Source of the DNA: Methanospirillum hungatei JF-1
GTDB lineage: Archaea > Halobacteriota > Methanomicrobia > Methanomicrobiales > Methanospirillaceae
Direction: 5' to 3'
NCBI RefSeq assembly: GCF_000013445.1
Contig: NC_007796.1
Span: 682,001 to 746,000, forward strand
Length of the DNA stretch: 64,000 nucleotides
A program made the translations under genes and the position numbers. This document shows positions 1,289-57,885 of this stretch, in pieces (the first letter of the stretch is position 1; every line of letters starts with the position of its first letter). The notes under the pieces were generated by a model. That model was given only the letters and a program-made list of their open reading frames with translations. It did not search any database and was not told where the DNA came from.

Positions 1289-2062
1289 TCAGAGGAGCTT
1301 TATATATCCGGGTGCCGGTTGATAGACTTCATCTTCCGCTACAAGATTTCGAATGGTATTTCTGACCAGTTCATCAGCAAGGGCTGCACGCCGTGTGTAT
1401 TTCTGGATGTCGTCGATATGAATCCCGCGTGGACCTGAATATTCCTTTATTATTGACAGGATAAGTTCTGCAGGATCCACAGGTGGTCCTGGTTCTTTTA
1501 TAACTCCCAGTGCTTTCTCCGCTCGTTCAGCAAATCCTGTCAAATGTCCGTACTGGATATGATAGTGGGTTTGTGCTTCCCGCATTTCTTCATTCAAATC
1601 ACCGGAAAGAAGACCTTTTCGCAGTTCATGAAGCCGGTTAAGGAGAGAACCAGCCGCAGCTTGAATCCATATATCCCGGTCCTGCTTTGTTGCTATTCTG
1701 CATGTCTCAACTATCCATCGTATCGTTCTGTTATCTGATCCTGTATTTTTCTCCGGATGGGCAGTAACACTCAGAAACAAGGGAGGAACCAGATCTGCGG
1801 GTTCCAGAGAGTCGAGTGTCTGAGGTTTTATTATAAGACTGACTGCTCCGGTTGGGTCTGCAATCCTGATGATTTCTCCCTGTCTGCCAGGTTCATAGCT
1901 GGTCAGAGCTCCCGTAAGCCAAATCTTCTGAATATTACCTCCGGTAGGTGTGAGGATACGGGAGAGCTGTTCTTTTTGCGCAATCAGGTAATCGGTCTGT
2001 TCCAGTTCAAATGAAAATATGGGAATATATGCCGGAAGCAGGTCTGGTGCCGCATTTGACAT
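1289..2062 (-). CDS. RPA-associated protein (COG3390-like, OB fold)
   Basis: OB-fold protein resembling the archaeal RPA-associated proteins (RPAP), about 257 residues. A central stretch around residues 45-120, with GALTSYEPG, IRIADPTGAVSL and a VIETCR-like end, looks like an OB fold; the C-terminal 60 residues resemble a winged helix that ends in a hydrophobic beta strand. RPAPs work with the single-stranded DNA binding protein RPA during replication and repair. A GTG at 2086 would add eight residues, but a TATA-like CTATAAAAAAT near 2095-2105 would place transcription start close to the ATG at 2062, which I prefer. First gene of the RPAP-phosphoesterase-Lhr operon. No RPA gene is in the window, which is unusual because RPAP usually sits next to RPA. 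Confidence 0.72.
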   Translation of the reverse strand: MSNAAPDLLPAYIPIFSFELEQTDYLIAQKEQLSRILTPTGGNIQKIWLTGALTSYEPGRQGEIIRIADPTGAVSLIIKPQTLDSLEPADLVPPLFLSVTAHPEKNTGSDNRTIRWIVETCRIATKQDRDIWIQAAAGSLLNRLHELRKGLLSGDLNEEMREAQTHYHIQYGHLTGFAERAEKALGVIKEPGPPVDPAELILSIIKEYSGPRGIHIDDIQKYTRRAALADELVRNTIRNLVAEDEVYQPAPGYIKLL

Positions 2063-2442
2063 TCTGATATGATCTGTAAGTGTCACGTATGTATTTTTTA
2101 TAGGTGGTACTGACTATTAGATGCATTGGTAAAGCCCTGCGCTTGCTGAAACATGTATGATGTCATGAATTATGGAAAATAGCGTGTAGTCATGGCTGAC
2201 TGGAATACGACAAATTTATAAGCTCCCTATAAAAATGGAAAAATTTTAGTAATTTAGCCTAAAACGGATAAATAATTAATATTTTAAGACGACTATCTGA
2301 ATTAAATTAAATTGGCCCAAGCAGCGTGGATCACATATATGGCAGTATTATTTTTCTCCAATTGACCAGAACTTTCGATATGTTTTTAATTCATTGTGAG
2401 ATATACTTGCGTATACATAACTTTCGATCGCGGGTAATTTGT
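2063..2442. other. divergent intergenic region between RPAP and the giant PKD protein
   Basis: This AT-rich gap holds the promoters of two divergent genes and no convincing coding sequence. On the minus strand a TATA-like CTATAAAAAAT lies near 2095-2105. On the plus strand TTTATAAGC near 2214 and GTATACATAAC near 2411 are the best TATA candidates; the second would give a nearly leaderless transcript for the ATG at 2443. An in-frame ATG at 2326 would add 39 residues to the downstream protein but would bury its signal peptide, so I treat that part as non-coding. Confidence 0.5.
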
Positions 2443-5400
2443 ATGATGGGGAATGCGAAGACTGTCTGGTGCCTCATTCTGGCCATTTTCTTAATAGCAG
2501 GTACATTCGTATCTGCTGATGAGAATGCGGGAGATACTCAGGCATTACAGACAAAGCTGGCTTCAATGCCCCTTGTTTTTATTCAGAACAACGGGCAGTT
2601 TGAAGATAATGTATCGTACCAGACCCAGTCAACTGATCAGGTCATTTCTTTTACTGATGAGGGTATGGAATTCAGCCATAATCCCGGTAACAGCTCAGTA
2701 TTCATGCTCCTGAATGGGTCTAATCCAGATAAGAAGATCATCGGTCTGAATCCATTGAATGGAACGGCAAACTTCTACTATGGTTCTGATCCGTCTGCGT
2801 GGGTTATTGGTGCCATGCTGACATCAGGAGTCAGGTATGAGGATGTTTATAACGGTATTGATTATATCGTTTCCGGGACTGAAGGTCTTTTAAAGAGTGA
2901 ATTCATCCTTGATGCAGGGGCAGATCCATCCCAGATTATGCTGGTGTATCAGGGTCACACCGGTATATCATTGAATGAGACGACCGGGGATCTGGTTATA
3001 GAGACTCCTGCACGACAGATTATTGATGAAGCGCCGGTTGCATACCAGGAGGTAAACGGCACACGGACTGAGGTTGAGTGTTCCTATGTCCTGGGTCCTG
3101 ATGCAACCGTCACCTTTGCCCTTGGGGAGTATGATCCATCACTTCCACTGGTCATAGACCCGGTACTGCGGTATTCTCTCTATTTTGGAGGGGATGGCCG
3201 TGACCAGGGGAACTCAATCAAGGTCGATAAGGAAGGATATGCATACTTTATTGGAACCTCGTGGTCAGATCATCTGAAGTATTTCAAAAATAATGCAAAA
3301 GATCCTCTCTCAAATCAAAATCCACCAGGAACCCAGCAGGCCCTGAGTTCTGGGGATGTATCTGTGGAAGGACTTGCACCAGGGAGTATACAGCCCTACT
3401 TTGGTGGCGGTGAAAAGGATGCGTTTGTTGTAAAAGTGAATCCTGACGGGACTGACCTTGTATACATCTCCTATCTTGGAGGGTCCGGAACTGACGAAGG
3501 TACCGGCCTTGTCATTGATGAAGCAGGAAATGCATACATTACCGGAGGAACGAATTCGCCAAATTTCCCAACAAAGAATCCCTACCGGAATGCTCTTGCA
3601 GGCGGATATGATGCCTGGATGGCAAAACTGGATCCGACCGGAAAGGAACTTGTCTTCTCAACATACTTCGGTGGAGTCCATGATGATTTCGGATTTGACA
3701 TTGACATCGATAAATCTCACAATGTCTTTGTTACCGGTCAGACTGCATCATGGAATTTCCCGGTTGTGAACCGGTATCAGCTCTCACCATACGGCGGTCT
3801 TCCGGATGCCTTTATCACCAAGTTTACCGCTGAGGGCAACTCCATTGTGTACTCCAACTTTATCGGTGGTTCAGCGTTTGATGCAGGAACTGCCGTATCA
3901 GTTGATTCCAATGGATATGCCTGTATTGTAGGTCAGACTGAATCTCCGAATTTCCTGACAATCAAACCATATCAGGATAAACTTCGCGGCCCGTTCGATG
4001 CTTTTGTTACCAAGTTTGATCCAGAAGGAAAGTATCCGGCTATGTATTCCACCTATCTTGGTGGTTCAGGGACAGATGATGCACGGGATGTTATTTCCCT
4101 GCCGGATGGAAGCCTCATCGTCGTAGGTATTACCAAATCAAAGGATTTCCCGACGGTAAATGCACTTCAGGGAGAACTGAAAGGGCTCCAGGATGGATTT
4201 ATCACAACTCTGAACGCTGATGGCTCGGCACTTACCCAGTCAACATACTTTGGTGGTTCCCTCATCGACTCAATAACTGGTGCTGCCCGTGATAAAGATG
4301 GCAATATTTACGTGGTAGGAACCACGAACTCACCAGATATACCGGTAACTCTTGCATACCAGTCCAAACCCGGTGGCAGTTCTGATGTGCTGATTGCAAA
4401 GTTCAATCCAGCCATAAGCCAGATTGGATATGCCACCTATCTTGGTGGTGGAAGTATCGATGAAGGTCGTGCTATTGATGTTCTGCCCGAAGGAGAGGCA
4501 TATCTGACCGGTTATACTGAATCCAAAAACTTCCCGAAGGTATGGCCATATCAGCAGAACTTTGGTGATGGAGACCGTGATGCATTCATCGTCTCCCTGT
4601 CAGAACATGATATGATACCGGTCACAGACTTTGAAGGTGTTCCGACTGAAGGTGATGCTCCGCTTACGGTTCAGTTTACCGATAAATCACTTGGTATCCC
4701 GACTTCATGGGCCTGGGAGTTTGGAGATGGTGGAACCTCAACTGAGAAGAACCCGCTTCATGTCTATGAGAAACCGGGTGTCTACACCGTCTCTCTGACT
4801 GCAAAGAACATTGTATCTAGCCAGAAGAAGACAAAGGAAGATTATATCCACGTGTTTGAACCGGTAAAACCACCAGTTGCAGACTTCTCAGCAAACCCCA
4901 CCGAAGGAATGGTCCCCTTGGCAGTCACCTTCACGGATCTTTCAACAAATGATCCGGAAACATGGTCATGGGTATTTGGTGATGGGGGAACGTCCACTGA
5001 GAGGAACCCGGTGTATACATACAATAATCCGGGAACCTACACTGTGAACCTGACGGTCAGTAACCGTGCTGGAGTATCCTCCAAGGAGAAGCCGGAGTTT
5101 ATCCATGCAAAGCCTGCGGTTATCCCACCGGTTGCAGACTTCAATGCCAACCCGACCAGTGGCATGGTCCCGCTCGCAGTAACCTTCACCGATGCTTCAA
5201 AGAATGGCCCGACTGCATGGAAGTGGACCTTTGGTGATGGTGGTTCATCAGCCGAACAGAACCCGGTATATACTTATACGGTGCCCGGGACCTACAACGT
5301 CACCCTGAACTGCAGCAACAGTGCCGGTTCAGATGAGATCACAAAGCCTGAATTCATCCATGCCCAGCCGGCAGTCATTCCACCAAAAGCAGACTTCAAT

Positions 5401-28466: not shown

Positions 28467-29085
28467 GTCCACAGAGGGAGAGGAGTTTTCTTGCCCATTG
28501 GAGTTTTCCTTTCTTCATAGGAGTGACCACCGGATCATCTAGATCAAATCCGATAAGGGTTACGTCTGATGCCTGCATCTCATGAGCAAGGTATACGGCC
28601 CGATCACCATCGGTAAATCCACCAAAGTTGTAGACATGGCCAAAGGGTTTTCCCTGGGTGGTCAAAACCAGCGGTCCTTTCATCCGGGGAACCCATGTCC
28701 GAAGACGGGGAATATTATCTCCATGGGCATGGACTACCAGAATAGTCCCTTTCCTGTTCAAGGTAACTGCCTCATCCTCAATCCCGTCAAGGTCGGTGAC
28801 GATGACATCAGGTGTAATTCCATGTCGTATCAGAACGCCGGAGGCTGCATCTGCAGCGATGATTACTCCGGTAATTGCTTCCAGCTCCTGTGAAAGAGTT
28901 GGTGCATTCCCGCAGATTGTAACCGGTTTTCCTGCAATACAGGATTTTAAAAGATCTGTTGCATCCTGTATTGTCAGATCTGCAAGAATATGTGCAGCCC
29001 GGTCATCTTCTGCAGGGTCAAAAGAGAAGTACTCGCAAATCTCCTGGTACACCGGTTCCCAGTCTTCATACTTCACTCTCCTCAT
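28456..29085 (-). CDS. mptE: 6-hydroxymethyl-7,8-dihydropterin pyrophosphokinase
   Basis: Archaeal MptE-type enzyme that makes the pyrophosphoryl ester of hydroxymethyl-dihydropterin for tetrahydromethanopterin biosynthesis, 209 residues of the DUF115 fold. Family motifs: ICGNAPTLSQEL, IAADAASGVLIRHGITPDVIVTDLDG (first metal/ATP-binding box), LVVHAHGDN, FGGFTDGDRAVYLA and a final LIGFDLDDP. It overlaps the DHH gene upstream by 20 bases and the radical SAM gene downstream by 11 or more bases. The operon position between an RCK-DHH fusion and a radical SAM protein is unusual for methanopterin genes. Confidence 0.9.
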   Translation of the reverse strand: MRRVKYEDWEPVYQEICEYFSFDPAEDDRAAHILADLTIQDATDLLKSCIAGKPVTICGNAPTLSQELEAITGVIIAADAASGVLIRHGITPDVIVTDLDGIEDEAVTLNRKGTILVVHAHGDNIPRLRTWVPRMKGPLVLTTQGKPFGHVYNFGGFTDGDRAVYLAHEMQASDVTLIGFDLDDPVVTPMKKGKLQWARKLLSLCGHEL

Positions 29086-30529
29086 CCTCCAGAAGACCGA
29101 CGAGGCGGTAAAAGTTCTGTAAAACGGGATCTATTACCAGGTGTAAAAGTTCTTCCTTTTCCCTGACATGAGCAAAGACATGGAGTGGAATACTTGCAGC
29201 AGCCATGGTGGCATGACCTCCCGCATCACCGACTTCTGAGAACGCTTCGCTCATGACATTGCCTAGGTTCAGTCTGAGATCCCGGTTCCGGCCTGACATG
29301 ATGATCGCTTCATCAGTAATTCCATAGACGAGCGCGGTACTGATTCCTTCCAGGTTGATGAGGAGATCCGCGGCCTGGGGAAGAGCATCACGGTTTCTGA
29401 CATACCCGACATTTGAAAACAGGTACCCGTTCCTTGTTTTTCTGTTCCGGATTGCTGCCCCGATAATATCCATGGTCTCATGGGAGTACTGAGGGGACAT
29501 GATCTTTTCCAGAAGATCAGCGTCACTGAACTCCAGGAGGAAGGCTGCATATTCAAGATCACTGGGTGAGACATTTCGTCTAAACTGTTTTGTGTCAGCC
29601 CTGATGCCGTAGAGGAGTGCCGTTGCAACCTTTTCGTCTGGTTCAATATTGAGTTCCTTGATATATTCGGTCAGAATGGTCGCACAGGCACCCACATTCT
29701 GCCTGATATCGATAAAATGGACCTTTTCAATGTGAGAGATATCTTCCTGGTGATGGTCAATGATGATATCAACCGGCATGGAGTGAATAAGACCATTATT
29801 TGCTCCAGGTCCCTTGCTATCCACTAGAGCGATATGGGTGCATTCATTAAGTGTCTCTGGTTTTAATTTCTCCATCCTGATATCAAGCAGATTTACCAGT
29901 GTCCGGTTCTCCTGGTGGCCGATGATCCCATCATAGATGATTCTGGTTTCCAGATTCTGGTTTGCCCGTTTTGCGATCGCTGCAAGAGCCATGGCACTGG
30001 CGATCGCATCAGGATCAGGGTTGGTATGCGTCACAATACCAAAGATGCCAGACCAGGATGCAAGCAGGTTATAGAGATCACGGGAGAGGTGGTGCTTTTC
30101 AAGACGGTGTAAGTGTTCTATAGCGGCCCGTGCAACTACATGCTGGGGGTAGAGAACGAGGTCCGCGCCCTCCTGCATCAGGAGTTTTTCATTGATTGGA
30201 TCCTGCGCACGGGCGACGATATGAACCCGTGGATATTTTTTTCTGACTGTTTTCAGACCGGTAATATTTGCTTCATGATTATCGCTGACCACAAAGGCGA
30301 TATCAAAATGATCTATTCCCTGCAGCATGTCAGGATCGGTAAGATCGCGAAGAAAAGCTTCAATCTTCTGCTCCCGAAGTTCCTGAACACGTTCAGGATT
30401 GCTATCCATACAGAGCAGTCTGCCACCTTCCTTTTTCAGTTCTTCAAGGATCAGGTATCCAACACTCCCACACCCACAAATGAGATAGGTTCTGATCCCC
30501 GGTGACGCTGCCGGGCTGAATCCAGGCAT
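29066..30529 (-). CDS. RCK/TrkA-N domain fused to DHH/DHHA1 phosphoesterase
   Basis: 487-residue fusion. Residues about 13-130 form a Rossmann fold of the TrkA-N (RCK) type with the nucleotide loop ICGCGSVGYLI and D at the end of strand 2. Residues about 165-330 are a DHH phosphoesterase: THTNPDPDAIASAM, ALVDSKG, IIDHHQED, and DTKQF follow. DHHA1 (about 365-480) ends with the GGHATMAAASIP substrate loop. DHH/DHHA1 proteins hydrolyse nucleic acid ends or cyclic dinucleotides; the RCK link to nucleotide sensing makes a c-di-AMP or nanoRNA role possible. Heads the mptE/radical SAM operon. Similar fusions are known in archaea and their function is not settled. Confidence 0.88.
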   Translation of the reverse strand: MPGFSPAASPGIRTYLICGCGSVGYLILEELKKEGGRLLCMDSNPERVQELREQKIEAFLRDLTDPDMLQGIDHFDIAFVVSDNHEANITGLKTVRKKYPRVHIVARAQDPINEKLLMQEGADLVLYPQHVVARAAIEHLHRLEKHHLSRDLYNLLASWSGIFGIVTHTNPDPDAIASAMALAAIAKRANQNLETRIIYDGIIGHQENRTLVNLLDIRMEKLKPETLNECTHIALVDSKGPGANNGLIHSMPVDIIIDHHQEDISHIEKVHFIDIRQNVGACATILTEYIKELNIEPDEKVATALLYGIRADTKQFRRNVSPSDLEYAAFLLEFSDADLLEKIMSPQYSHETMDIIGAAIRNRKTRNGYLFSNVGYVRNRDALPQAADLLINLEGISTALVYGITDEAIIMSGRNRDLRLNLGNVMSEAFSEVGDAGGHATMAAASIPLHVFAHVREKEELLHLVIDPVLQNFYRLVGLLEDEESEV

Positions 30530-49518: not shown

Positions 49519-49899
49519 ATGACATTCGCTCCGGAAATCAATCAGACATCGACTCATTCCGGGACCGGTTCCACTCTGGAATTAACAGAGGATAAAATTC
49601 TAAAAACATTCGAGAGAATTCATATCCTGGTTGATACTCGTTCAATCATCTTCTCTGCTCATGCACGGACCAGGATGTTCGAACGTGGCATTTCATCAGA
49701 GGATATATTACCTATCCTGTCAAAAGGAGAGATCATTGAAACTTATGATGACGATACTCCATGTCCCTCCTTTCTGATGCTTGGATATATTCACGATTCT
49801 GTGCTACACATTGTTATTGCAGTTTGTGAAGATCACATAAAAATCGTTACAGTATATCATCCGGATAATCGATGGATAAACGATAAAATGAGGAGATAA
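49519..49899 (+). CDS. DUF4258 domain protein, toxin candidate
   Basis: 126-residue protein with the DUF4258 core at about residues 44-125: SAHARTRMFERGIS, LSKGEIIETYDDD and DHIKIVTVYHPDNRW. DUF4258 members are often toxins in two-gene modules. A YgiT/MqsA-type zinc-finger protein, a typical antitoxin, follows four bases later. The gene order toxin-antitoxin (the reverse of most TA operons) matches MqsRA-like systems. N-terminal 40 residues are not recognised. Confidence 0.85.
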   Translation: MTFAPEINQTSTHSGTGSTLELTEDKILKTFERIHILVDTRSIIFSAHARTRMFERGISSEDILPILSKGEIIETYDDDTPCPSFLMLGYIHDSVLHIVIAVCEDHIKIVTVYHPDNRWINDKMRR

Positions 49900-49902
49900 A
49901 TA

Positions 49903-50148
49903 ATGAAACCGGGATTGTGCCAGTTTTGTAAAGGAACAATGAAAGAAGGAAAAACGGAATTTATTGCCCATGTCAGGGATCAGGTAATTGTGATAAAAGA
50001 TATTCCAGCCTTTGTATGCGAACGATGTGGGGAGGCGTGGTTTTCATATGAGACCTCAGAAAAAATCGATAAAGTTATGCAGGATGTTCATGCCGGAACA
50101 ATCTGTGTCCGTCCGCTTGCTGCAGGTGAGATCGAATTACCAGCCTGA
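49903..50148 (+). CDS. YgiT/MqsA-type zinc-finger antitoxin candidate
   Basis: 81-residue protein with CQFCKGTMKEGKTEF...VRDQVIVIKDIPAFVCERCGEAWF: two CxxC pairs form one zinc site, as in the MqsA N-terminal domain and YgiT-type zinc-finger families that partner DUF4258 toxins. The C-terminal helix-turn-helix of full MqsA is absent. Operonic with the DUF4258 gene (three-base gap). Confidence 0.87.
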   Translation: MKPGLCQFCKGTMKEGKTEFIAHVRDQVIVIKDIPAFVCERCGEAWFSYETSEKIDKVMQDVHAGTICVRPLAAGEIELPA

Positions 50149-50259: not shown

Positions 50260-52044
50260 TCACATTGGCCAGAAATGAAGTATCACCGGAATCGAAACAA
50301 TAACCATTACTATCTCGAGCGGTAGCCCGAGTTTCCAATAATCCCCGAATTTGAGCCCGGCCGGACCCATAACCAAAGCATTCGACTGATGACCCACCGG
50401 AGTCAGGAAAGCACTGGAGGCTCCAACCACGATAGCCATCAGGAAGGGATCCGGCGAAACCCCAAGACCGGTTGCAATACTAAATGATATCGGAGCCATC
50501 AGGACGGCAGTTGCGGCATTATTGATGAGGGCTGAAAGCAGCATGGTCACGATAAGGATAATTGTAAGCAGGATCACCGGTGAAAGAAGATTCTGAAATG
50601 ATAACAACGTTGATGCTATCAGTTCTGCTCCGCCGGTCTCCTCCATGGCCTGACCAACCGGAATAAATGCACCAAGAAGGATGATCACCGGCCAGTCAAT
50701 ACTCTCGTAAATCTCCCTGACCGGAACAAGGGAAATGAGGACCATCAGCAATGCAGCAAGAGTAAAGATGACCTGAACCGGAACAATCCCGAGAGCTGCA
50801 ATCACGATTGTACCGGCAAAGATACCGACGGATTCGATGATCCGCTTTGGCTCTCCAATCTTGAGGCCCCGCTCTGCAAGAGGGAAACACCCGAGAATTT
50901 TGATAGCTTCCCGAAGTGCTCCCTCGGTTCCCTGAAGTAATAAGACATCACCGGCCTGAAACCTGATATCATTGAGCCGTTCCTTGAGAAGAACTCCCTG
51001 TCTTGCTACTGCAAGAAGATTAATTCCGAAACCTGCCCTGAGATCGATATCTCTCACATTCAAACCCAAAGCTGGAGAATCAGCCCTGATCGTGCCCTCC
51101 ATCAGAATCCTGTCACCAGATTCAATAGTTTCCCGGTCTAACGTGACATGTTCCTCAAGTTGAAACCCGGTTGCAAGAAGAAATTTTTTCAGATCATCAA
51201 GAGCTGCCTGGACTATCAGAATATCATCGGCTTTTATTCGTTCATACATGTACGGGACCGGTCGTGCAAATGATCCCCGGATAAGCTGGATAATGGTAAT
51301 TTTTGCATTGGTTGCCTTAATGATCTCCCGAAGTGCCTTCCCGGCATATTTTGATTCAGGTGGCACCCGTATCTCCGTAAGATAATTTTGAATCGTGAAA
51401 AAATCATCCAGTGAACCTGGTCCGGTTCGTTTTGGTACCAGTCGCCATCCGATCAGGGCGATAAAGAGGAAAGAGATGAACGCAACCCCAAGACCCACCG
51501 GGGTAAAATCAAACATGGCATAGGCCTGCCCGAGATGTTCCTCCCGAAATGCTGAGATGATAAGGTTTGGCGGTGTTCCAATAAGGGTGATCATCCCGCC
51601 CAGTTGTGATCCAAATGCAAGTGGGAGGAGAAGGATGGAAACCGGTACCAGGCTGGATCGTGCCATTTTAATTCCCACCGGCATGAGCAGGGCAAGGGCT
51701 CCAACGTTATTCATGAACCCTGAAAGTGTGATAACAAGGCCGGTGAGTGCAGAGACCTGGATGGTTGGCCGTTTTCCAACCTTCATAAGAGCTCCTGTAA
51801 TCATCTCCACCACTCCGGCATTCAAAAGTCCCCGGCTGATCACCAGAACTGCAGCTACAGTGATGACTGCCGGATTTGCAAAACCGGAAAATGTCTGGGT
51901 CCAGGGAACTACTCCCAGAATTGCGGATACACACAACGCAAGAAGAGCAACGATGTCATATCGCATTCTCCCATCGATAAAGAGAGCAAGAGAAAGGATG
52001 AGGATAACAAAAACGATTATCTGATCAGCTGTTACCGACATCAT
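50260..52044 (-). CDS. SLC13/DASS-type anion transporter with two RCK_C domains
   Basis: 594-residue transporter with about 10-11 hydrophobic segments and two TrkA-C (RCK_C) regulatory domains inserted between about residues 215 and 385 (ESKYAGKALREIIKATNAKITIIQLIRG; PALGLNVRDIDLRAGFGINLLAVARQG...GDVLLLQGTEGAL). Family motifs at both ends: FMNNVGALALLMPVGI near residue 112 and INNAATAVLMAPISF near 507. Such proteins move sulfate, dicarboxylates or related anions with sodium; the substrate is unknown. Upstream on the same strand (90 bases) lies the acetate-transporter gene. Confidence 0.9.
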   Translation of the reverse strand: MMSVTADQIIVFVILILSLALFIDGRMRYDIVALLALCVSAILGVVPWTQTFSGFANPAVITVAAVLVISRGLLNAGVVEMITGALMKVGKRPTIQVSALTGLVITLSGFMNNVGALALLMPVGIKMARSSLVPVSILLLPLAFGSQLGGMITLIGTPPNLIISAFREEHLGQAYAMFDFTPVGLGVAFISFLFIALIGWRLVPKRTGPGSLDDFFTIQNYLTEIRVPPESKYAGKALREIIKATNAKITIIQLIRGSFARPVPYMYERIKADDILIVQAALDDLKKFLLATGFQLEEHVTLDRETIESGDRILMEGTIRADSPALGLNVRDIDLRAGFGINLLAVARQGVLLKERLNDIRFQAGDVLLLQGTEGALREAIKILGCFPLAERGLKIGEPKRIIESVGIFAGTIVIAALGIVPVQVIFTLAALLMVLISLVPVREIYESIDWPVIILLGAFIPVGQAMEETGGAELIASTLLSFQNLLSPVILLTIILIVTMLLSALINNAATAVLMAPISFSIATGLGVSPDPFLMAIVVGASSAFLTPVGHQSNALVMGPAGLKFGDYWKLGLPLEIVMVIVSIPVILHFWPM

Positions 52045-52132: not shown

Positions 52133-52729
52133 TTATACTGGCCAGACCGGCCAGATGATCTTTCCGTACACTTCATTCAGAACCTGGGCAAGTCCGGTGT
52201 AGATTGCTGAAAACCCACAGATAATTCCTTCAATTCCTGCAATCTGTGTGATAGTCTCAATTCCGGTGATATCACCAAGAGCAAGGAGGAAGAACAGGAT
52301 GGTCAGGGAGCCGAAGACAAATTGCAAAGCTCTGTTCAGTCGTAATGTTCCGATGAACATGATTCCGGTGAAGATGCCCCATATGATAAGGTATGAGGCC
52401 ATGGCGATGTTGCCTCCGGTTCCGTCCACCAGATCTGCCGCCGGTAACAGGAGCAGCATCACCAGGGATATCCAGAAAAGGCCGTAGGAGAGAAATGCAG
52501 TCATACCAAAGGTATTATTCTTCTTCCATTCCATAAGTCCTGCAATAATCTGGGCAGTTCCTCCATAACATAGTCCCATTGCCAATATCATGGATCCCAG
52601 CGTAAATAATCCGGCATTATGCAGATTGAGCAGGACGGTTGTCATACCAAAACCAAGAAGCCCGAGAGGTGCAGGATTTGCAGTAAGTTCAGAGACGATC
52701 ATTGATCCTGTTTCACTGATTTGTGTCAT
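52133..52729 (-). CDS. acetate/succinate transporter, GPR1/FUN34/YaaH family
   Basis: 198-residue membrane protein with six helices. The family signature [23 protein letters not shown] is at residues about 18-40, followed by [21 protein letters not shown] and a GLFWISLV helix. The start is set by an AGGAGG ribosome site five bases before the ATG at 52,729; a longer frame to 52,843 has no such site. Acetate is a carbon source for many hydrogenotrophic methanogens, so uptake of acetate is the likely job. Confidence 0.9.
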
Positions 52730-52885
52730 AGTGCCTCCTATAGTAATCTGGTCGGATTGAAGAGTGATTATCCTGTAAGGTATAAGAGGATATGGTGAGT
52801 ATTTGATGTGGTACCTGGAAGGTTTTTTGCCCCTGTACATCAAATAAACGGGAGGTTTTTATATGAATCCTGAATGGTGCAATAG

Positions 52886-53125
52886 GTGTTGCAGGTGAGT
52901 GACCCAATCAATTCTGTAGATAGAAACGGAACAAAACGGAAATACATTAAACCCGGTCTTTCCGTAGATATTATCCTGAAACAGGATCAGCGAACTGGTA
53001 AGAAAACTCGCGGTATTGTCAGAGAGATTTTAACCGGTTCATCATTTCATCCGCATGGGATTAAAGTCAGGCTTACGTCTGGTCATGTCGGCAGGGTTTG
53101 TTTTATCCATCCGGATAGCCCCTGA
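52886..53125 (+). CDS. YwbE-family (DUF2196) small protein
   Basis: 79-residue conserved small protein: KYIKPGLSVDIILKQDQRTGKKTRGIVREILTGSSFHPHGIKVRL and GHVGRV are hallmarks of the YwbE/DUF2196 family, found in bacteria and archaea and of unknown function (RNA or nucleotide binding suspected from the Gly/basic loops). Start is the GTG at 52,886; the divergent gene is the acetate transporter. Confidence 0.93.
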   Translation: MLQVSDPINSVDRNGTKRKYIKPGLSVDIILKQDQRTGKKTRGIVREILTGSSFHPHGIKVRLTSGHVGRVCFIHPDSP

Positions 53126-53756
53126 AAATTTATCCGAGTCCGTGTTCTATCAAATCCGGATAAGAAAACAGTATATTGACCTTAAACCTTAATTTTTCCG
53201 ATAATATATATTTCATAAAAACCACATGTAGGCCTATTCTCAAGGGCATCTTCCTACCGTATGTCTCTATGGAATAATCCTGAGGTCCTTATATAATCTC
53301 TCTGTTGGATTCAATATTGGGTCGCTATTATCAGGTTAATAGAGAGTTTTGATTGAGTGTTTTCATGAAGATATGAGGATTAAATGGGGTTGTGGGCAGT
53401 CTGATATAAATGCTATTGTAGCATTAATCTCATTGTAACAATTTATATTAAAAATCAAATAAATCTTTTAATATCTTTATTTATAAAAAATAACCCATTT
53501 CTAGAGTTGGGTTACATAATCTGATGCCTATACCTGGGTAGAGCCGGTGAAAGGAGTAATATCTGACCAGATGATGTATTGAGATAGTTCCATTCCTTTC
53601 CAAAGGATACTTTCAGAATTTTGAAGATGCTTTATCGAAATTCGCAATTTTTTACATAAGGCCAAGTAGACAATCAGTTCTTTTATTATCTCTGAGGTAT
53701 TATTCAGCATATACCTGATAACCAAAATTTCTCAGTCTCTATCACATTTGAATTTC
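53126..53756. other. 630-base intergenic region before the P-type ATPase operon
   Basis: No convincing gene; a 60-codon minus-strand frame (53,528-53,710) lacks a ribosome site and family signals. A perfect 7-base hairpin, TAACCCA/TGGGTTA with a 10-base loop (53,491-53,514), lies in the middle. AT-rich blocks around 53,430-53,490 could contain the promoter of the ATPase operon, which would then have a long leader. Confidence 0.4.
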
Positions 53757-56552
53757 ATGGTACCAAAAGAGCATTCAGAGCAGGACTATTCTGCATCAGT
53801 TCAGGAGATCTACTCCCGGTACTCTTCCGGCCCCTCCGGGCTCGATCCTACTGAATGTCTTCACCGTCTCACTATTTATGGGAAAAATACCCTGATCCAG
53901 TCAAAGAAAAAATCGGTCTATATTAGGTTTTTCGCAAACTTCACGCATCTTATGGCAATCCTCCTGTGGATCGGTGGGATTGTCGCACTGATCGCACACA
54001 TGCCCCAGCTCGCAGCAGCGGTGTGGATGGTAAATATTATCAATGGTCTTTTCTCCTTCTGGCAGGAGTTTAGAGCTGAGAAGGCTGCGGATGCCCTGAT
54101 GCAGCTACTTCCCGTAAAGGTCCGTGTCATTCGGAATGGTGTCACTATCGAGATTGCAGCCGAAGATCTGGTTCCCGGTGACCTCATGGTCCTTGCAGAG
54201 GGGGATCATATCTCTGCAGATGGCCGGCTGGTGGAAGCATCAGAACTCAGGATTGATCAGTCCACATTAACGGGTGAGTCCCATCCGGTAAAGAAGACTG
54301 CTGATCCGTCATATGAGACTGATATCTCAAAGATTGAGTATCAGAATCTGGTCTTTGCAGGAACCAATGTTGTGTCAGGGACTGGGCTTGCAATAGTCAC
54401 AACCACAGGTATGACCACCGAATTTGGAAAGGTTGCTCATCTCACCCAGGGGATAGAAGAGGAGAAAAGTCCCCTGCAGCAGGAGATGGTGCATGTCACC
54501 AGGATGGTCACCATTGTTGCGGTCAGTATCGGGATTCTCTTTTTCATCATGCTCATGACTCTGACAACCGTCACCCTTGCTGAAAGTTTTATTTTTGCTC
54601 TCGGCATGATTGTTGCATTCGTTCCTGAAGGTTTACTCCCGACAGTCACCCTTGCGCTTGCACGGGGTTCGCAACGGATGGCTAAACGAAATGCCCTGAT
54701 CAAACGATTATCAGCGGTGGAGACTCTGGGCTGTACCAGTGTCATCTGCACTGATAAAACCGGGACCCTGACTCAGAATGAGATGACCATTACCCGGATA
54801 TGGATCCCTGGTTCTTTCTTTTCGGTGACCGGAGTCGGCTATGGCCCCGAAGGTGAGATTACTCCTGACGAACCGGCGAATCAGAAGAATATGGATGCTC
54901 TCAGAGAATTGTTCATAGCCGGTGTTCTCTGTTCAAATGCACGGCTTCTTGCTCCGGATTCTGCAAATCCCCAATGGAATATTCTTGGTGATCCAACTGA
55001 AGCTGCCATCCTTGTCGCAGCAGAAAAGTCAGGAGTATATTATGAAGAGGAGAGCCACCGATTCCCACGGGTTCGGGAATTTCCCTTTGACTCCAGACGA
55101 AAATGCATGAGTACCCTGCACCTTGCAGAGAACGATCTCATCTGTTACCTGAAAGGTGCTCCAAAGGCAGTCCTTGACATCTCTTCAATGGTGATGGAGA
55201 ATGGAGAACCCGTTTTGTTAACCGGGGAGAAACGGGCCAGAATCATGGAGGTGAATGACTCCTTTGCCGAGCAGGGACTTCGTGTTCTGGGGATTGCCCG
55301 GAAAAATATCCACGGCGATGTTACTCCGGAAAATGCTGAAGACGTGGAGCATGACATGACATTCCTCGGCCTTGTTGCCATGATGGATCCCCCCCGTCCT
55401 GAAGTTGCATTGGCCGTGAAAAAATGTCATCGTGCCTGTATCCGGATTATCATGATAACCGGCGATTATGGGCTTACAGCTAAAAGTATTGCCCGTCGTA
55501 TTGGAATAATAACTAGTGATACCCCCCGTATCATCACCGGGGTAGAACTTGATCAGATGGACAATAATGACTTAAAACAGGCTTTGTCAGGGGAGGTCAT
55601 CTTTGCTCGGGTTACCCCTGAGCATAAGCTCAGGGTAGTTGAAGTCTTGCGGGAAACTGGAGAAATTGTTGCAGTTACCGGGGATGGGGTGAATGATGCA
55701 CCTGCTTTGAAAAAAGCGGATATTGGGGTTGCAATGGGAATATCCGGGACTGATGTAGCGAAAGAGGCTGCTGACATGGTTCTTACTGATGATAACTTTG
55801 CATCCATTGTCAATGCTATAGAGGAAGGCAGGGCGGTCTACGCTAATATTAAGAAGTTCACCGGTTACATCTTCACCAGTAATACCCCTGAGGCGGTTCC
55901 GTTCATCCTGTTTGCATTCAGTAAGGGAAGAATCCCGCTGGCTCTGGATGTGATGCCGATTCTTACCATCGATCTTGGAACCGATCTCGTTCCTGCCCTT
56001 GCCCTTGGGTCAGAACCGCCTGAGCCGGGGATTATGGATAAACCACCCAGAAATTTGAGAGAGCATGTCATCACCCGGTCACTCCTATTTCGGTCCTATC
56101 TCTGGCTTGGACCGATACAGAGCCTTGCCGTGATGTCTGCCTTTTTATATCAGTACTGGACGAACGGATACTGGGGAAGAATTTTCGACCTGCCTGCACA
56201 AGGCCCTCTCTATCACTCAGCAGTAGGAATGGCTCTTGCAGCGGTTGTGACCACCCAGATTGGTAATGTCCTTGCACACCGAACTGAACGAAGTTCTATT
56301 CTTAAAATCGGGTTTTTTACAAACAGAATGGTTTGGGCTGGTATTGTCAGTGAACTCATCATTATTATCATCGTTCTCTATATTCCGTTTTTCCAGGAAA
56401 TAATCGGAACAGCTCCCTTCCCGGTAGAGAACTGGCTGTTTCTGTTTGCCTGGGCACCAGTCTTGTTACTGGCAGAGGAGTTCAGAAAGGGAGTTATTCG
56501 TATGATTGAAAAGAAAAAGGGAGTGAATAATCCATCAGGAGGGATAGCATGA
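53757..56552 (+). CDS. P2-type cation ATPase, Na,K-ATPase-like
   Basis: Cation-pumping P-type ATPase, 931 residues from the ATG at 53,757 (a TTG three codons earlier is possible). Order of motifs: actuator TGES (about 175), TM4 PEGLLPTVTLALARG, phosphorylation CTDKTGTLTQ (about 330), nucleotide-binding DPTEAAIL and KGAPK, hinge GDGVNDAP (about 640), then a TM6 TIDLGTDLVPALALGSEPPE that closely resembles the IDLGTD-xVPA of Na,K- and H,K-ATPases. About ten transmembrane helices. No beta-subunit gene is seen. Its stop overlaps the next gene (ATGA), a TrkA protein. Confidence 0.93.
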   Translation: MVPKEHSEQDYSASVQEIYSRYSSGPSGLDPTECLHRLTIYGKNTLIQSKKKSVYIRFFANFTHLMAILLWIGGIVALIAHMPQLAAAVWMVNIINGLFSFWQEFRAEKAADALMQLLPVKVRVIRNGVTIEIAAEDLVPGDLMVLAEGDHISADGRLVEASELRIDQSTLTGESHPVKKTADPSYETDISKIEYQNLVFAGTNVVSGTGLAIVTTTGMTTEFGKVAHLTQGIEEEKSPLQQEMVHVTRMVTIVAVSIGILFFIMLMTLTTVTLAESFIFALGMIVAFVPEGLLPTVTLALARGSQRMAKRNALIKRLSAVETLGCTSVICTDKTGTLTQNEMTITRIWIPGSFFSVTGVGYGPEGEITPDEPANQKNMDALRELFIAGVLCSNARLLAPDSANPQWNILGDPTEAAILVAAEKSGVYYEEESHRFPRVREFPFDSRRKCMSTLHLAENDLICYLKGAPKAVLDISSMVMENGEPVLLTGEKRARIMEVNDSFAEQGLRVLGIARKNIHGDVTPENAEDVEHDMTFLGLVAMMDPPRPEVALAVKKCHRACIRIIMITGDYGLTAKSIARRIGIITSDTPRIITGVELDQMDNNDLKQALSGEVIFARVTPEHKLRVVEVLRETGEIVAVTGDGVNDAPALKKADIGVAMGISGTDVAKEAADMVLTDDNFASIVNAIEEGRAVYANIKKFTGYIFTSNTPEAVPFILFAFSKGRIPLALDVMPILTIDLGTDLVPALALGSEPPEPGIMDKPPRNLREHVITRSLLFRSYLWLGPIQSLAVMSAFLYQYWTNGYWGRIFDLPAQGPLYHSAVGMALAAVVTTQIGNVLAHRTERSSILKIGFFTNRMVWAGIVSELIIIIIVLYIPFFQEIIGTAPFPVENWLFLFAWAPVLLLAEEFRKGVIRMIEKKKGVNNPSGGIA

Positions 56553-57208
56553 AGATAATCATCATCGGATGTGGCCGTATGGGGTCAGGACTTGCCATGC
56601 GTCTTGTACGGTCACATCATGAAATTACGGTAGTGGATCATGATCACCGGGCATTTGACCGTCTTGGGGCAGGATTTTCCGGAATGATAATAGAACATGA
56701 TGCCATGGACAAAAAATCATTTACGATGAGTGGGGTAGAAAAGGCAGATGGACTTGCCGCAGTAACCGGAAATGATGCAGTGAATATTGTCGTCGCCCGT
56801 GCGGCAAAACAGATGTACCGGGTTCCAAAGGTGATTGCCCGAACTCATGATCCCCGATATGCAGAGCTGTATCATAAATTGGGTATTGAGACGGTCACCA
56901 ATGTAACTCTTGGTATAGAACGGATATCAGAACTTCTGACATTTTCAACTCTTGATATTATTCATGGAATCGGAGATGGAGAAGTAGGCATAGTCAGATA
57001 TGATATTCCTCCGCTCCTTGCCGGACATCAGGTGAAGGATCTGACTGTCCCGGGTGAGATCATTGTCTTGTCACTGACCAGGAAGGGGAAGACCAGCATT
57101 CCAACCCTTGGAACTACACTGGAAAAAGGTGATGTGGTTCACATTGCCGTGGAAGAGCGGGCTGTTGACCGGTTAAAGAATGAAATGCGGACCGTCGGAG
57201 GTGGATAA
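56549..57208 (+). CDS. trkA: TrkA-type NAD-binding K+ transport regulator (first copy)
   Basis: 219-residue RCK protein: N-terminal Rossmann domain (IIIGCGRMGSGLAMRLV, D at end of strand 2: VDHD) and a C-terminal TrkA-C domain (about 135-215: GEIIVLSLTRKG, LEKGDVVHIAVE). Such proteins gate TrkH/KtrB potassium channels with nucleotides. Here it overlaps a P-type ATPase upstream by four bases (ATGA) and the second TrkA downstream by one base (TAATG), so all three are a single operon. No TrkH or KtrB is present. Confidence 0.93.
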   Translation: MKIIIIGCGRMGSGLAMRLVRSHHEITVVDHDHRAFDRLGAGFSGMIIEHDAMDKKSFTMSGVEKADGLAAVTGNDAVNIVVARAAKQMYRVPKVIARTHDPRYAELYHKLGIETVTNVTLGIERISELLTFSTLDIIHGIGDGEVGIVRYDIPPLLAGHQVKDLTVPGEIIVLSLTRKGKTSIPTLGTTLEKGDVVHIAVEERAVDRLKNEMRTVGGG

Positions 57209-57885
57209 TGAGTCTTTCTGTATTGATTGCCGGTGGGGGTAAGGTCGGGACCTATCTTGCAAAGATCCTGATTTCCAACGGTAATATTGTTACCATCCTT
57301 GAAGGAGCACCAGAAGATTATCATAAACTCGAACAGGAATTTCAAGAGGGTCACCTGGTCAAAGGAGATCCGACCGATCCACAAGCCCTCATAGCTGCCG
57401 GAATAAAAAATGTCAATGTGGTTGCGGCAGTCACCAGACATGACGAGATGAACCTGGTCATAGCAAGCCTTGCAAAATTTGAGTTCAGGGTGAAAAGGAC
57501 TATCGCCCGGGTAAACATCCCGAAAAATGCCTGGCTTTTTACCAGAGAGATGGGTGTTGATGTCATGGTGAATCAGGCAGATCTGATGGCTCATCTGATT
57601 GCACGGGAGATGACCGTCGGTGATATGATGACAATGCTCAAACTCCGGACCGGTGAATACTCCCTTGTAGAACACATCGTGACCAGTGGATCGGCCGCAT
57701 CAGGCAAAGCGATTAAAGATCTCCACCTCCCACAGGAATGTGTCCTGTCTGCTATCATCAGGGATCATAAACTGGTTATCCCACGTGGGAATATCGTTCT
57801 TCATCCGGGAGATGAGGTCCTCACCGTTGCTCATGAATCGGTAACTGCGCAGGTAAGACAGGTACTTCAGGACCCCTCCGGATGA
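57208..57885 (+). CDS. trkA: TrkA-type NAD-binding K+ transport regulator (second copy)
   Basis: 225-residue RCK protein of the same group but with a slightly different nucleotide loop (LIAGGGKVGTYLAKIL) and a Glu at the strand-2 end (ILEGAP), suggesting a different nucleotide. The TrkA-C domain follows at about 140-222 (YSLVEHIVTSGSAASGKAIKDL, HPGDEVLTVAH). Two non-identical RCK proteins probably form heteromeric or stacked rings. Third gene of the ATPase operon. Confidence 0.93.
   Translation: MSLSVLIAGGGKVGTYLAKILISNGNIVTILEGAPEDYHKLEQEFQEGHLVKGDPTDPQALIAAGIKNVNVVAAVTRHDEMNLVIASLAKFEFRVKRTIARVNIPKNAWLFTREMGVDVMVNQADLMAHLIAREMTVGDMMTMLKLRTGEYSLVEHIVTSGSAASGKAIKDLHLPQECVLSAIIRDHKLVIPRGNIVLHPGDEVLTVAHESVTAQVRQVLQDPSG

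Follow-up and report, generated by a model that had tools for sequence, protein, structure and literature searches.

Results

An ATPase gene overlaps two RCK genes

The locus examined here lies in a 64,000-nucleotide stretch of Methanospirillum hungatei JF-1 DNA (NC_007796.1, positions 682,001 to 746,000; hereafter the window), which is part of a single-contig genome of 3,544,738 bp. In it, a gene for a P2-type ATPase is followed on the same strand by genes for two TrkA/RCK proteins, RCK1 and RCK2; we refer to the three genes as the triad. Their positions in the window are as follows.

53757-56552, + strand: P2-type ATPase with a Na,K-ATPase-like ion site, 931 residues (open reading frame list, Pfam, NCBIfam, residue alignment)
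56549-56552, + strand: ATGA overlap of the ATPase stop and RCK1 start (read directly from the sequence)
56549-57208, + strand: RCK1, TrkA/RCK protein, 219 residues, GCGRMG nucleotide loop (open reading frame list, Pfam)
57206-57210, + strand: TAATG overlap of the RCK1 stop and RCK2 start (read directly from the sequence)
57208-57885, + strand: RCK2, TrkA/RCK protein, 225 residues, TM1088B/TrkA-like, GGGKVG nucleotide loop (open reading frame list, Pfam)

The ATPase gene has an alternative TTG start at 53748, three codons upstream. A preliminary description of the locus had noted the two overlaps, the differing nucleotide loops and the lack of a TrkH gene in the operon, and all of these were confirmed, TrkH being absent from the entire genome as well (see below).

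The ATPase has ion-site residues of Na,K-ATPase

Pfam assigned the full set of P2-type P-type ATPase domains to the ATPase, in which the P-type core motifs (DKTGT, TGES and GDGxNDxPALxxAxxG) are intact. The PEGLLPTV and IDLGTDLVPA motifs of the preliminary description are both present. Its placement of the protein in the Na,K type rather than the SERCA type was borne out by the ion-site residues, compared one by one, but not by the NCBIfam models, of which the PMR1-type scored 633 bits and the Na,K-type (TIGR01106, curated cut-off 946.1) 626.1 bits, both under their cut-offs. Other archaeal Na,K-like pumps likewise score below the TIGR01106 cut-off, the best reaching 751. Because the two models score nearly equally and below threshold, the Na,K label rests on the ion-site residues and not on a family score.

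In the alignment, E291, Y704, S708, N709 and E712 of the window ATPase correspond to E327, Y771, S775, N776 and E779 of Na,K-ATPase, and D739, T742, D743, Q834 and E866 to D804, T807, D808, Q923 and E954; N324 and D926 are the two that differ, being F288 and N837 in the window ATPase. Among 87 RCK-linked ATPases, the equivalents of E327, E779, D804 and Q923 are present in every protein, D808 in 86, N776 in 85, T807 in 84, and S775 and E954 in 81 each. Most have SNxPE in transmembrane segment 5 (TM5) and DLGTD in TM6, as in Na,K-ATPase, and most carry Phe at the N324 position and Asn at the D926 position, the latter being common also to other archaeal Na,K-like pumps. The D804 position is Asn in LMCA1 and in the nearest bacterial pumps without RCK genes, and Asn at this position is the Ca2+-pump pattern.

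When set beside P2C ATPases (animal Na,K- and H,K-ATPase α subunits and methanogen Na,K-like pumps; PMC10654040), the window ATPase has the same P2-type domain make-up and shares the ion-site residues of TM4, TM5, TM6, TM8 and TM9 except for the two named above, whereas the triad ATPases form a separate clade and the window protein has Phe at N324, falls below the TIGR01106 cut-off and is without the SYGQ/E β-assembly motif. This motif was not found in the window ATPase sequence and is absent from the whole prokaryotic group in PMC9609216. The node joining the RCK-linked clade with Na,K-ATPase had a support of 0.198 in a tree of 123 P-type ATPases and 0.814 in a smaller set. The residue evidence suggests that the ATPase would work like a Na,K-type pump; since the family models are indecisive and the deep node is weak, we do not claim formal P2C membership.

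RCK1 and RCK2 resemble a known two-subunit RCK ring

Pfam detected TrkA_N and TrkA_C domains in each RCK protein (E values of 1e-9 to 1e-27), and the predicted single-chain structures of both consist of RCK_N and RCK_C domains (mean predicted local distance difference test score, pLDDT, 84). In fold and sequence the two proteins match TrkA and the TM1088A:TM1088B ring of Thermotoga maritima (PDB 3L4B), which likewise is encoded by two separate overlapping RCK genes and is octameric, with TrkH (TM1089) as its partner (PMC4380455), whereas the membrane protein linked here is a P-type ATPase. RCK1 is nearest to TM1088A over the N domain, but TM1088A is an N domain only (143 residues) and RCK1 has an additional RCK_C domain; RCK2 is nearer to TM1088B than to TM1088A. 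RCK1 keeps the equivalents of the residues that hold AMP in TM1088A (R10, D30, T73 and R98), and RCK2 keeps GGGKVG, E32 and R101. The GxGxxG glycines of RCK1 (G7, G9 and G12) and its D30 were conserved in 52 of 52 sequences, those of RCK2 (G9, G11 and G14) in 34 of 38, the other four being truncated there, and E32 or Asp was present in 38 of 38. The distance matrices of the ATPase, RCK1 and RCK2 were correlated pairwise with r = 0.78-0.83.

The triad is conserved in one order across phyla

A strong RCK1 orthologue (>200 bits, the next matches scoring ≤90) was found in 15 of 100 genomes sampled from the family, and in all 15 the ATPase gene (62-80% identity) lay directly upstream of RCK1 and RCK2 directly downstream; a lack of conservation in relatives, which the preliminary description had named as evidence against its proposal, was thus not observed. 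An ATPase-first search added two family genomes in which the ATPase gene is cut by the contig end. RCK1 was behind none of 12 ATPase relatives at 40-45% identity. Outside the genus the flanking genes vary from case to case and the triad alone is constant. Conserved synteny as the only basis of the operon was rejected, since the flanks change between genera and the triad stays.

Conservation reaches far beyond the Methanomicrobiales. A scan with an RCK1 profile, using one genome per species, yielded 80 loci, of which those of Methanomicrobiales overlap with the 15-genome family set; the others came from Chloroflexota, Geobacter and other Desulfobacterota, Meiothermus hypogaeus, Bipolaricaulota, Actinomycetota, Bacillota and Binatia. 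The ATPase gene was directly upstream of RCK1 in 63 of the 80; in two this position was off the contig, and 15 loci were without an ATPase. The gap between the ATPase stop and the RCK1 start had a median of 0 bp, and 32 of the 63 pairs touch or overlap. Methanospirillum stamsii (NZ_QGMZ01000055), Meiothermus hypogaeus and Desulforhabdus sp. TSK are named isolates with the triad.

The linkage is restricted to one ATPase clade. An ATPase-first scan of 249 genomes, from the class to which one of the Chloroflexota genomes belongs, gave matches in two groups, one at about 49-50% identity or more and the other at ≤47%. RCK1 was found behind all 21 upper-group ATPases whose loci were fetched and RCK2 in 20 of these, the remaining locus lying at a contig edge; no RCK gene was behind nine next-best ATPases of the same class or behind six Na,K-like pumps from another archaeal family. 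In the tree of 123 P-type ATPases, the RCK-linked ATPases were monophyletic (87/87, support 0.986), with a Na,K-like Methanomicrobiales group lacking RCKs as sister (support 0.966). Unlike the triad ATPases, the other archaeal Na,K-like type is not linked to RCK genes.

Some loci showed further features. Roseiflexus and a Chloroflexota genome related to it carry, at L126 and L128 (10370-13105 in each) and L142 (5649-8384), a second P2-type ATPase gene of a different kind (37-38% identity) directly behind RCK2, and at L144 (9773-10951) an IS605 OrfB/TnpB-type transposase gene is inserted between RCK1 and RCK2. The RCK-less Na,K-like P2 ATPase genes of Methanomicrobiales at L093 (4855-7536) and L097 (4678-7374) are each preceded, at a distance of 8 bp, by a prokaryotic cation-chloride cotransporter gene (2672-4846 and 1673-4669, respectively), a pairing that recalls animal cells; the cotransporter domains were assigned by Pfam in L093, and the L097 cotransporter belongs to the same sequence cluster.

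TrkH and KdpA are missing from the genome

Neither TrkH (PF02386) nor KdpA (PF03814) had a match in the whole window genome; as a control, the TrkH search was positive in 11 of 14 genomes. A TrkH/KtrB gene elsewhere, which the preliminary description had named beforehand as evidence against its proposal, was therefore not found. One Kup gene is present. Every other clear TrkA_N protein of the genome is a fusion, with DHH domains, a Na/H-exchanger-type antiporter or a two-RCK ion channel, so that RCK1 and RCK2 are its sole free-standing RCK proteins, and they are without a Trk/Ktr partner. TrkH was absent from 12 of 12 sampled genomes of the genus and present in 69 of the 100 genomes of the family. 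A hidden TrkH partner was rejected for this organism and for the genus because neither has TrkH, as was the involvement of KdpA because the window genome has none. Among bacterial triad carriers, TrkH was missing in 20 of 37 and present somewhere in the genome in 17. Of 27 TrkH-less carriers, 15 were without Kup as well; many carriers are incomplete metagenome-assembled genomes, so these absences are soft. In a separate case, G013:C1:108285-111122 gave two TrkH matches within one open frame of 1025 residues, an apparent tandem TrkH fusion.

Distant RCK pairs adjoin a different transporter

Distant RCK pairs without an ATPase adjoin a gene for a KimA-like permease in 11 loci, in tandem upstream in seven and divergently in four.

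L164 6887-8854: KimA-like, in tandem
L167 3659-5695: KimA-like, in tandem
L168 2002-4113: KimA-like, in tandem
L169 6907-8850: KimA-like, in tandem
L170 1-837: KimA-like, in tandem
L174 890-2836: KimA-like, in tandem
L178 199-2139: KimA-like, in tandem
L177, L179, L180, L181: KimA-like, divergent

These permeases, from Anaerolineae and Actinomycetota, are about 650-800 residues long and match AA_permease_2; we call them KimA-like on the strength of this match and not of a KimA model. The same query found no KimA-like gene near any ATPase locus. Judged by gene neighbourhood, the KimA-like permease may be a second partner with which RCK pairs work without TrkH, and its position beside distant ATPase-less pairs suggests that the RCK pair is a regulatory module that changes its membrane partner. 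In two Bacillota metagenome-assembled genomes, RCK1-RCK2 pairs (L139 9001-10342 and L140 9001-10330) have no clear adjacent transporter partner; at L139 the pair is followed by a gene for an MgtE_N/CBS protein.

Other genes of the window

29069-30529, - strand: TrkA_N fused to DHH/DHHA1 phosphoesterase domains
49519-50148, + strand: two small adjacent genes, candidate toxin-antitoxin pair
50260-52044, - strand: CitMHS/SLC13-type transporter with TrkA_C domains, upstream of the triad
52133-52843, - strand: acetate uptake transporter, upstream of the triad
52895-53125, + strand: DUF2196 (YwbE-like) short gene, GTG start, upstream of the ATPase gene, below the 80-residue limit of the open reading frame list

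An SLC13-type gene also adjoins the triad in three further genomes of the genus. The two small genes resemble a toxin-antitoxin pair of the DUF4258/MqsR type and the YgiT/MqsA zinc-finger type, a putative assignment.

Discussion

That the three genes form a functional unit is well supported. We consider it probable that they encode one transport system, in which a Na,K-ATPase-like pump for monovalent cations is joined by a dedicated two-subunit RCK regulator that senses adenine nucleotides. The pump would be driven by ATP, most likely moving K+ in and/or Na+ out. By analogy with Thermotoga TM1088A/TM1088B, RCK1 and RCK2 probably form a hetero-oligomeric ring, which may bind AMP, ADP, ATP or NAD(H), would attach to the ATPase from the cytoplasmic side and could adjust pump activity to the energy or ion status, in the way that TrkA adjusts TrkH. 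The preliminary description had proposed that the pump is regulated directly by the RCK proteins. We infer direct gating, rather than observe it, because the genes are constantly adjacent in one order, the linkage is restricted to one ATPase clade, other partners are lacking and RCK pairs swap partners.

Several observations weigh against this proposal. In none of the loci from the RCK1-first scan are the ATPase and an RCK protein naturally fused, and the clade has no specific cytoplasmic insertion or tail that might serve as a docking site, only scattered positions. The correlation of the distance matrices stems in part from shared ancestry and joint transfer, and the absences counted in incomplete genomes are to be taken with the caution given above. 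TrkH or Kup is encoded elsewhere in some carriers, so that a partner in trans is possible there, and in one genome (G031, represented by L085 and L113) TrkH lies just upstream of the ATPase gene on the same strand (L085 4324-5826, - strand; L113 4239-5738), the sole triad locus with TrkH beside it.

The main rival is that the genes are merely co-expressed: the pump would act independently, the RCK pair would gate Kup, a KimA-like importer or an RCK-less channel in trans, and the operon would co-ordinate K+ supply. The single Kup gene of the window genome, the KimA-like importers beside distant RCK pairs of the same type and the classical role of RCKs in regulating channels and secondary transporters all favour this explanation. 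However, partners acting in trans have no need of constant adjacency, the linkage is confined to one ATPase clade and one order through several phyla, Kup too is missing in 15 of 27 TrkH-less carriers, and the KimA-like query found nothing near ATPase loci; we regard co-expression alone as unlikely. A composite system, in which the ATPase and a TrkH-type channel encoded elsewhere are both controlled by the RCK pair with a Kdp-like division of labour, could account for the TrkH gene that immediately precedes the triad in L113/L085 and for the 17 of 37 bacterial carriers with TrkH, but the window genome, its genus and 20 of the 37 carriers are without TrkH. The preliminary description had offered a composite K+/Na+ system as an option; no channel gene is found repeatedly next to the triad, which makes this option less likely, and we judge the TrkH-based form to be highly improbable.

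It could also be argued that the pump transports a different ion (Ca2+, Mn2+ or H+) under the control of an RCK pair that responds to a cation or nucleotide. The PMR1-type Ca2+ model is the top NCBIfam match (633 against 626 bits), most members have Phe at N324 and Asn at D926, and the deep node with Na,K-ATPase is poorly supported (0.198, or 0.814 in the smaller set). Yet Asp at D804 and Gln at Q923 are found in all 87 members, most have the TM5 SNxPE and TM6 DLGTD of Na,K-ATPase, the D804 position is Asn instead in LMCA1 and in the closest bacterial pumps without RCKs, Asn at D926 occurs also in other archaeal Na,K-like pumps, and RCKs otherwise accompany K+ transport. Another ion seems to us quite improbable, and a nucleotide-controlled pump for monovalent cations remains the reading that we prefer.

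RCK domains control channels and secondary transporters, and we know of no RCK-controlled P-type pump. Trk/Ktr systems (TrkAH, KtrAB) have RCK subunits with nucleotide motifs in common with RCK1 and RCK2, but a channel-like TrkH/KtrB subunit where the triad has an ATP-hydrolysing pump. KdpFABC likewise is a multi-subunit prokaryotic system linked to K+ that contains a P-type ATPase; however, this is a P1A ATPase with the channel-like KdpA, which the window genome lacks, and no RCK. CeoB/CeoC of M. tuberculosis are two TrkA proteins of a K+ uptake system for which the paper mentions no TrkH (PMC13163235), and as described the unit is without a P-type ATPase, unlike the triad. The preliminary description knew of no earlier account of such an arrangement, and our search of the open-access literature, with subscription papers outside its scope, returned no paper linking RCK proteins to a P2 pump.

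Conservation of the triad, often without the usual channel, points to pump regulation of a previously undescribed kind. We are evenly divided on the wider claim that here, for the first time, a hetero-oligomeric RCK ring directly gates the transport cycle of a primary ATP-driven pump. On this reading the Na+/K+ pump would sense nucleotides, be self-contained, occur in archaea and several bacterial phyla and be able to substitute for Trk, and RCK pairs would be exchangeable among TrkH, KimA-like permeases and P-type ATPases. A 2023 review (PMC10654040), which does not mention TrkA, asks "P2C ATPases: what do they do in archaea?" and treats this as an unsolved problem. The triad is a concrete, expressible three-gene system with which to ask what archaeal P2C-like pumps do, and it carries a built-in prediction, namely that the pump would be regulated in a nucleotide-dependent manner through RCK1 and RCK2.

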